Of a stretch of 23,326 nucleotides of DNA, positions 10,556-11,574 are shown piece after piece. The stretch lies in IMG/VR virus record IMGVR_UViG_3300025671_000545, positions 1 through 23,326 of that record. One strand, 5' to 3'. Each line of letters opens with the position of its first letter. Within the stretch, counting starts at the first letter, position 1. The notes beneath the pieces are model-generated. The model did not search any database. It saw only the letters and a list, made by a program, of their open reading frames with translations, and was not told the origin of the DNA. A program made the position numbers and the translations under genes. Origin of the DNA: a virus.

Positions 10556-10836
10556 TGGCAACAGTAGGAGTTAGCGTTAGAATAGATGTAACAAAGATTG
10601 ATAAAGATAAGTTGTACAAAGGTCAGAAAGGTCAGTATTTGGACTTAACGACTTTTATAAATCTTGATGAGCAAGACAAGTACGGTAACAATGGCTTCAT
10701 CAGTCAATCAGTTTCAAAAGAAGAAAGAGATGCTGGAGTTAAAACTCCAATTCTTGGTAATGTAAAGGTGTTCTACCCAGCAAGTAATGCACCTGCTAAA
10801 CAAGAAGACTTTGCTTTAGAAGATGATCCATTCTAA
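10555..10836 (+). CDS. Conserved phage protein with SSB-like acidic tail (93 aa)
   Basis: The 93-aa product opens with beta-rich MATVGVSVRIDVTKIDKDKL, continues KGQKGQYLDLTTFINLDEQD and GNNGFISQSVSKEERDAG, and ends EDDPF. The acidic tail ending in Pro-Phe mimics the C-terminal tip of ssDNA-binding proteins that recruits repair enzymes. With its place after an exonuclease/annealing pair, a ssDNA-binding OB-fold role is plausible. I recognise the family only as conserved phage hypothetical; the function is inference. Confidence 0.7.
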   Translation: MATVGVSVRIDVTKIDKDKLYKGQKGQYLDLTTFINLDEQDKYGNNGFISQSVSKEERDAGVKTPILGNVKVFYPASNAPAKQEDFALEDDPF

Positions 10837-11029
10837 ACACATTAAACATGGTGCATCAAAAACCATTGATGGCAAGGTGGTTAGGAGAATCCCTAAACAA
10901 AATGTAAAATTCTTACCCAAAGATGCAGAAATTCTAGGTCTTTGTAATAATAGATTAAGAGTTAGATTGGATGTTGAATGGATAAGAAGAAGAGGTAGGG
11001 GATATAATAGATTAGTAAGGGAGCAGTGA
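10823..11029 (+). CDS. Small basic hypothetical protein (68 aa)
   Basis: The strongly basic product includes GKVVRRIPKQNVKFLPKDAE then Leu/Arg-rich RLRVRLDVEWIRRRGRGYNR. Nucleic-acid binding is plausible from charge. The ATG overlaps the upstream gene by 14 nt. The stop codon lies within the hairpin at 11019-11036, so the terminator forms partly from coding sequence. Family not recognised. Confidence 0.65.
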   Translation: MIHSKHIKHGASKTIDGKVVRRIPKQNVKFLPKDAEILGLCNNRLRVRLDVEWIRRRGRGYNRLVREQ

Positions 11030-11036
11030 TGCTCCC
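11019..11036. terminator. Hairpin between the rightward genes and pqqA
   Basis: GGGAGCA (11019-11025), loop GTGA, and TGCTCCC (11030-11036) form a perfect 7-bp stem. It contains the stop of the 68-aa gene and starts 6 nt after the pqqA stop on the other strand. The U-tracts are poor, so termination may be partial, allowing read-through to the genes after 11215. It may also protect a short pqqA mRNA. Confidence 0.5.
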
Positions 11037-11042
11037 CTCTAA

Positions 11043-11114
11043 TTATTTGTTACAAACATACATTGTAACTTCGAAGCCGAAACGCATTTCAGTAGCTGCT
11101 GGTTTTGTCCACAT
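11043..11114 (-). CDS. pqqA: PqqA, PQQ precursor peptide
   Basis: A 23-codon gene encodes a peptide starting [14 protein letters not shown] followed by EVTMY and a short tail. The Glu-x-x-x-Tyr core (E15, Y19) is the pair that PqqE crosslinks to build pyrroloquinoline quinone; length, W2, the K-P turn and the FEVTMY core all match bacterial PqqA. The Shine-Dalgarno AAGGAG lies 7 nt upstream, with its own TATAAT promoter and a hairpin after the stop. It is antisense to the surrounding early operon, like a moron. No pqqB-E gene is present, so the host would have to mature it. It probably boosts PQQ for methanol dehydrogenase during infection (inference). Confidence 0.88.
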
Positions 11115-11147
11115 AGCTGATCTCCTTTCGTGTAAGATTTTGTTACA

Positions 11148-11184
11148 TGTATGATTATACAGTAGAGCTTTTAAATAACGACAA
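11148..11184 (-). promoter_or_regulatory. Promoter and possible operator of pqqA
   Basis: On the minus strand TATAAT (11154-11159) lies about 40 nt before the ATG, with TTGTCG (11179-11184) 19 bp upstream as a fair -35. The -10 is inside TGTAT-N4-ATACA (11148-11161), resembling the leftward early operator; both read TGTATAATC followed by ATACAT on the minus strand. Confidence 0.5.
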
Positions 11185-11214
11185 AAATGTAATTAGAAGA
11201 GGGTAGTGATTATC

Positions 11215-11574
11215 ATGATTAACGATGAAATTGATTTTTCCAATACAAAAAGTCAATTGTTATTTACTCCAGAAGGAGCACTGTATATCAACATACTTTA
11301 CAAAGCACTAGATGATTATAGAAAGTGTAAGAAGTATGATGGACGATTACAGCCAATGGGAGAAAAAGCTCTAGAATTTTTAATGTCACAAAATGAAATC
11401 ATGCAAATCAACGCTTGGCTTCTTGGCATTCCTTTGTATAAGATGATGGAGATAATGTACAATAAAGAATTGTTTACTGTATTTAAAAGAAACCTTAAAC
11501 TATTAATCAATGATATAGATGATTATTTAGATGGAAAATTTAAAGAGGTTAATGAAGATGATGATTCAGAATAA
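11215..11574 (+). CDS. Hypothetical protein (119 aa)
   Basis: The ATG at 11215 is preferred over a GTG at 11206 because GAGGG lies at workable distance only for the ATG. The mostly helical acidic product has TPEGALYINILYKALDDYRK, then GEKALEFLMSQNEIMQINAW, and ends in an acidic EDDDSE tail. No signal peptide or catalytic motif is seen. It is the first rightward gene after the pqqA interruption; its promoter is unclear, so read-through is assumed. Confidence 0.65.
   Translation: MINDEIDFSNTKSQLLFTPEGALYINILYKALDDYRKCKKYDGRLQPMGEKALEFLMSQNEIMQINAWLLGIPLYKMMEIMYNKELFTVFKRNLKLLINDIDDYLDGKFKEVNEDDDSE

Follow-up and report, generated by a model that had tools for sequence, protein, structure and literature searches.

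The 23.3 kb fragment of viral DNA analysed here (IMG/VR contig IMGVR_UViG_3300025671_000545; its whole length of 23,326 nucleotides is referred to as the window) carries a genuine pqqA gene, coding for the precursor peptide of PQQ. In our estimate there is roughly a three in four chance (about 0.77) that this gene constitutes a single-gene auxiliary metabolic cassette in a phage of a Methylophilaceae methylotroph, which would feed extra precursor to the PqqD, PqqE, PqqB and PqqC enzymes of the host. This reading is carried by direct observations on the identity of the gene, its conservation, its lone status, its match to the host family and the enrichment of an operator-like palindrome across the phage family, from which we infer its expression, maturation of its product by host enzymes and a benefit to the phage.

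The pqqA frame and its surroundings

PqqE crosslinks a glutamate and a tyrosine of PqqA, with PqqD acting as chaperone, and PqqB and PqqC finish the cofactor. The 23-codon frame at 11114-11043 had been taken for PqqA in a first-pass annotation made by reading the sequence. This identity is unambiguous: the peptide scored 42.4 bits against PF08042 (cut-off 21.1; E = 6e-11) and 45.1 bits against TIGR02107 (cut-off 20; E = 6e-12), about twice the model cut-offs in bits and far past chance. The E-x-x-x-Y crosslink pair is present in the 23-residue peptide as E15-V-T-M-Y19, and a search of the whole window revealed this single PqqA. The features of the locus are listed below.

11043..11114, minus strand: pqqA coding sequence including the stop codon; 23 aa, with the predicted crosslink pair Glu15/Tyr19, kept in relatives
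11122..11128, minus strand: ribosome-binding site AAAGGAG, read from the sequence
11154..11159, minus strand: TATAAT, candidate -10 box, read from the sequence
11019..11036, minus strand: hairpin GGGAGCA-TCAC-TGCTCCC, candidate terminator 3' of the pqqA stop, shared with the convergent plus-strand ORF at its end
10823..11029, plus strand: convergent neighbour ORF of 68 aa, no PHROG match
11206..11574, plus strand: divergent neighbour ORF of 122 aa, no PHROG match; the ATG at 11215 is a possible alternative start
11203..11219, minus strand: weak candidate PQQ box (ATCATGATAATCACTAC, 11/14), which coincides in part with the start of the divergent ORF

The gene lies antisense between two plus-strand ORFs, without overlap of the coding sequence of either neighbour. 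The same region encodes a Sak-like annealing protein and a YqaJ/RecE-type exonuclease, and pqqA is surrounded by phage recombination, helicase and lysozyme genes, which places a host-like metabolic gene in a bona fide viral genome. The window also encodes a PAPS-reductase-domain protein (PF01507; 5681-6514, minus strand) and a calcineurin-like phosphoesterase (PF00149; 13421-14122, minus strand), the latter being of a type also recorded in OM43 phages (PMC10580990).

The first-pass annotation had further described pqqA as a separate transcription unit with a promoter, ribosome-binding site and terminator of its own. All three elements are in place, but the TATAAT taken alone is not above chance and the T-tract of the hairpin (TTACTAAT) is weak. 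No good -35 box accompanies the TATAAT, and 3 promoter-like sites were counted in this stretch as compared to 2.7 expected. The folding energy of the hairpin region was -18.2 kcal/mol (z -4.7). When non-redundant phage loci were compared with shuffled sequences, the ribosome site was found in 100 of 102 loci as against 14% in shuffles, TATAAT lay upstream in 38 of the 102 (18.4 ± 4.2 in shuffles), and a terminator-like hairpin was present in 46% of the loci as against 0% when shuffled. TATAAT was commoner in phage than in host pqqA leaders, and a two-hexamer promoter score separated phage leaders poorly from shuffles.

Distribution, lone status and conservation of phage pqqA

When 50,697 GenBank phage records were searched with PqqA by tblastn, matches were obtained in nine methylophage records (Venkman, P19250A, MEP301, MEP401/402 and four Melnitz), in the environmental podovirus ctXG6705 and in two Acinetobacter records. 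A Pseudomonas-type PqqA used as second query retrieved the same GenBank phage records only. Methylophages MEP431-434 and HIM624-A, which are present in the taxonomy, lay outside the tblastn matches and were left out of the survey. The Acinetobacter records were rejected as phage carriers of pqqA, the one inspected (CAKLQF020000010.1, named Acinetobacter phage MD-2021a) being a stretch of bacterial DNA with fur, the polyphosphate kinase gene ppk and a full pqqABCDE operon. The methylophage GenBank records inspected have no PqqA feature, since a gene of 23 codons falls below most annotation cut-offs, and in ctXG6705 and Melnitz-1 a hypothetical protein is annotated on the strand opposite pqqA. 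PQQ is unmentioned in the reports of Venkman, MEP301 and MEP401/402; in that of Melnitz it appears solely as a vitamin of the medium, and phage pqqA is not described.

At least 120 IMG/VR contigs with pqqA were obtained by DNA pattern search; such patterns are conditioned on some residues, the counts refer to the matches listed, and the loci are mutually related. Among the first 125 phage copies listed there were 45 distinct PqqA peptides. Carriers range from the 141-kb Melnitz to small podo- and siphovirus-like phages and MEP401. When at least 3 shared proteins were required, 127 listed phage loci fell into 27 gene-sharing groups, a separateness exaggerated by short loci; the T4-like Melnitz, MEP401 and the group of the window are plainly different phages. 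The nearest GenBank phage DNA to the window is a 324-bp stretch of the OM43 phage Venkman, which is 74% identical. A 356-kb viral contig (IMGVR_UViG_3300023174_000036) has pqqA as well (MWTKPTAQEMRFGFEITMYVMNR). Four phage loci carry a second PqqA type, MWTKPTYE.IRLGFEVTMYFKN., like that of other proteobacterial contigs (MWTKPSYQKIRLGFEVTMYFK.. in two of these), hinting at pqqA in phages with hosts other than Methylophilaceae.

Conservation in related phages, to which the first-pass annotation had pointed as a check, was evident in the lineage of the window: pqqA was present in 29 of the 79 relatives found through the exonuclease, including nearly all the closest ones. Members of the lineage without pqqA may have other hosts or incomplete sequence. 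In all 29 carriers pqqA is on the opposite strand and follows the exonuclease start by about 0.9-1.4 kb; the antisense placement noted earlier for the window thus extends to every pqqA-bearing relative of its lineage. It was ruled out as a general trait, however, because co-directional pqqA is just as common in other lineages; among the 127 listed loci, pqqA was antisense to both neighbours in 38, co-directional with both in 39 and mixed in 40. The antisense position is therefore a property of the lineage of the window, and the varied orientation across loci argues for pqqA being a self-contained insert.

Each of the 50 largest pqqA-bearing records holds one PqqA (50/50), and neither PqqE above cut-off nor a PQQ-dependent alcohol dehydrogenase was found in these records (0/50 for each), of which those from IMG/VR may be fragments and the six from GenBank are complete genomes as per their titles. 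Weak TIGR02109 matches in two records were not accepted as PqqE, since they lie far below cut-off and control genomes trace such matches to other radical-SAM proteins. With a pattern fixing residues 1-5 and 10-14 only, Glu15 and Tyr19 were found to be kept in 122 of 122 copies listed. Absence of the frame or loss of these two residues in close relatives, or failure to match the PqqA models, had been named beforehand as evidence against PqqA; instead, the frame and both residues are kept in relatives and the models are matched. At the codons left free by the first pattern, pS was 0.69 and pN was 0.18, giving a pN/pS of 0.26 from pooled pairwise counts and not from a tree-based test. These values indicate that pqqA is selected as a peptide and kept by selection across phages.

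A palindromic box upstream of phage and host pqqA

A 17-bp palindrome, CTMATGA-N3-TCATKAG, is located about 70-125 nt 5' of the pqqA ATG in many phage loci. The motif in phage leaders, near -70 to -120, had an information content of 20.4 bits as compared to 10.2 in shuffles, and no motif was assigned in 14 of 103 phage leaders; these statistics rest on shuffles and within-locus backgrounds with no phylogenetic model, the phage loci not being independent samples. Boxes matching at least 12 of the 14 positions were 154-fold denser upstream of pqqA (27 in 18.6 kb) than elsewhere in the phage loci (10 in 1.07 Mb). The enrichment was 165-fold in loci with a co-directional upstream neighbour, and a divergent gene's start codon therefore does not account for the motif in such loci, though it may do so in the lineage of the window. 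The box of the window itself matches at 11 of 14 positions, a quality reached by four sites in the whole window, which corresponds to a chance of ~2% of finding one in the pqqA leader. Its role as a functional operator is plausible only.

The perfect palindrome was found in 28 of 141 host pqqA leaders, with 0 expected. Six host genomes contained 22 box sites with at most 1 mismatch, 13 of which were upstream of pqqA or pqqB; those at pqqA were mostly about 112-142 nt away, and those at pqqB about 97-185 nt. All six host pqqB operons have the box, either directly or before an operon-heading pqqA. The remaining 9 of the 22 sites lie away from pqqA and pqqB, and may mark further genes of a PQQ regulon or be fortuitous. 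Phage pqqA thus often appears to be a self-contained, host-wired transcription unit, with the box as its predicted operator. No paper on a palindrome or promoter of methylotroph pqqA was found in open-access text, and the box provides a handle on PQQ control in Methylophilaceae. A similar palindrome, CTAAGGA-AAA-TCCTGAG, precedes several Methylophaga pqqA genes by about 105-135 nt, and the operator may accordingly be older than Methylophilaceae.

Host match, proposed role and alternatives

A methylotroph host, as proposed in the first-pass annotation, is borne out by the phage peptide, which is almost identical to the Methylophilaceae PqqA consensus ending in [MC]N[KR], while PqqA of the Methylophaga and Pseudomonas types differs from the form shared by phages and Methylophilaceae. 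The exact peptide of the window was found in one genome contig, and the nearest sampled host pqqA copies are identical to the window gene at 62 of 69 nt. Phage pqqA also offers a practical means of recognising the host of an unknown phage. All 120 sampled Methylophilaceae genomes have PqqA, in 1-12 copies (median 4) and with at least 2 copies in 113 of them, which is in line with the 3-12 pqqA reported earlier for genomes whose pqqBCDE is usually single-copy (PMC4109929). Since it is only the consumed substrate that is multiplied, even in genomes of 1.2-1.3 Mb, PqqA supply is suggested to matter. In Gluconobacter, PQQ enzymes have been strengthened by supplying additional pqqA, by itself or along with the entire cluster (reviewed in PMC8102297). 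In a methylotroph with five pqqA the copies were expressed very unequally (PMC9851590), and supply is therefore not simply a matter of copy number.

The leader, ribosome site and terminator belonging to phage pqqA, together with a host-type operator in many relatives, would lead to PqqA production in infection, and wherever a good box is present expression would track the PQQ control of the host. Host PqqD would then present the phage peptide to the radical-SAM enzyme PqqE, by which Glu15 would be joined to Tyr19, and a host protease, PqqB and PqqC would complete PQQ. The extra PQQ would keep methanol dehydrogenase loaded, and with it the flow of energy and carbon during phage production. The use of host enzymes after translation follows from the lone status of the gene taken with established PQQ biochemistry. 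PqqA is consumed one for one and is hence a natural dose point, and it is mainly pqqA that the hosts themselves multiply. If PQQ does rise in infection, viruses would act on coastal and lake methanol oxidation via one peptide, at a step where it is consumed stoichiometrically. A wider proposal, to which we would give even odds, is that the lone pqqA cassette is near-universal in Methylophilaceae viruses, was acquired by unrelated phages on several occasions and is linked via the shared palindrome to a previously undescribed host PQQ regulon, the precursor being made on host demand.

Among the alternatives, the one with an appreciable though clearly minor chance retains the supply role and places regulation with the phage only, the phage palindrome being a relic or a chance likeness and expression following the phage programme. 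The weak box of the window, the 14 of 103 leaders with no assigned motif and the higher frequency of TATAAT in phage than in host leaders are consistent with this, but good boxes are enriched 154- to 165-fold at pqqA of mutually unrelated phages. An effect in the opposite direction is unlikely: here an excess of PqqA would saturate PqqD/PqqE, with host PQQ metabolism disturbed or redirected, or would engage some other host protein, and PQQ would not be raised. A lone precursor without its enzymes would also fit such titration; a decoy, however, could do without the crosslink pair, and both E15 and Y19 are retained in 122 of 122 listed copies, the phage peptide is almost the host consensus, and the host-type box links phage pqqA to PQQ supply.

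The antisense position, fixed in 29 of 29 carriers of the lineage of the window, is what would be seen if the locus acted as RNA, its antisense transcript tuning the plus-strand genes on either side and the peptide being a passenger. We consider this very improbable, given the selection on the peptide (pN/pS 0.26 at free codons), the ribosome site in 100 of 102 loci, the co-directional arrangement with both neighbours in 39 of 127 listed loci, and the lack of overlap between pqqA and neighbouring coding sequence. Hardly any weight is given to a recent capture from the host that is functionless in the phage. The 62 of 69 nt match to the nearest sampled host copies agrees with such an origin, but the gene occurs in many lineages (the 141-kb Melnitz, small podo- and siphovirus-like phages, MEP401), always as one copy per record, and its synonymous sites have diverged (pS 0.69) while the peptide was kept. 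A cassette supplying precursor to the host pathway thus remains our preferred reading.

Whether pqqA had been reported before in methylotroph phages, which could not be checked in the first-pass annotation, is answered by one precedent. The Lake Baikal phage population VP_266 (2020) is likewise a predicted Methylophilaceae phage with pqqA, which was interpreted as an auxiliary metabolic gene serving methanol oxidation (PMC7678222). VP_266 is T4-like and also carries methanol dehydrogenase (PMC7678222), whereas the phage of the window is small and has pqqA alone; methanol dehydrogenase and PqqE above cut-off were likewise not found in 50 further pqqA records, and a host-type candidate operator is present in many relatives of the window. 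The solitary pqqA copies of Methylophilaceae (PMC4109929) resemble the phage genes in having nearly the same peptide, their own leader and terminator away from pqqBCDE and often the same box. The phage genes differ from them in being phage-carried, at one per genome, with the box at about 70-125 nt as compared to mostly 112-142 nt, and with TATAAT more frequent. The breadth, lone status and palindromic box of phage pqqA are new here. Cyanophage auxiliary genes are reportedly under the host Pho regulator, a finding attributed to Zeng and Chisholm in 2012; there too a phage metabolic gene would lie behind the operator of a host regulator, though the pathway differs and the pqqA box is a candidate operator.

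A change of K4 to T or S in PqqA was considered as a phage-specific feature and was ruled out, since Thr/Ser at position 4 is common in host genera. Some Methylophilaceae lineages have Lys at residue 4 where others have Thr or, rarely, Ser, and OM43-like genomes often have both. In phage PqqA the same position is occupied by Lys, Thr or Ser, and it is a possible finer host marker.
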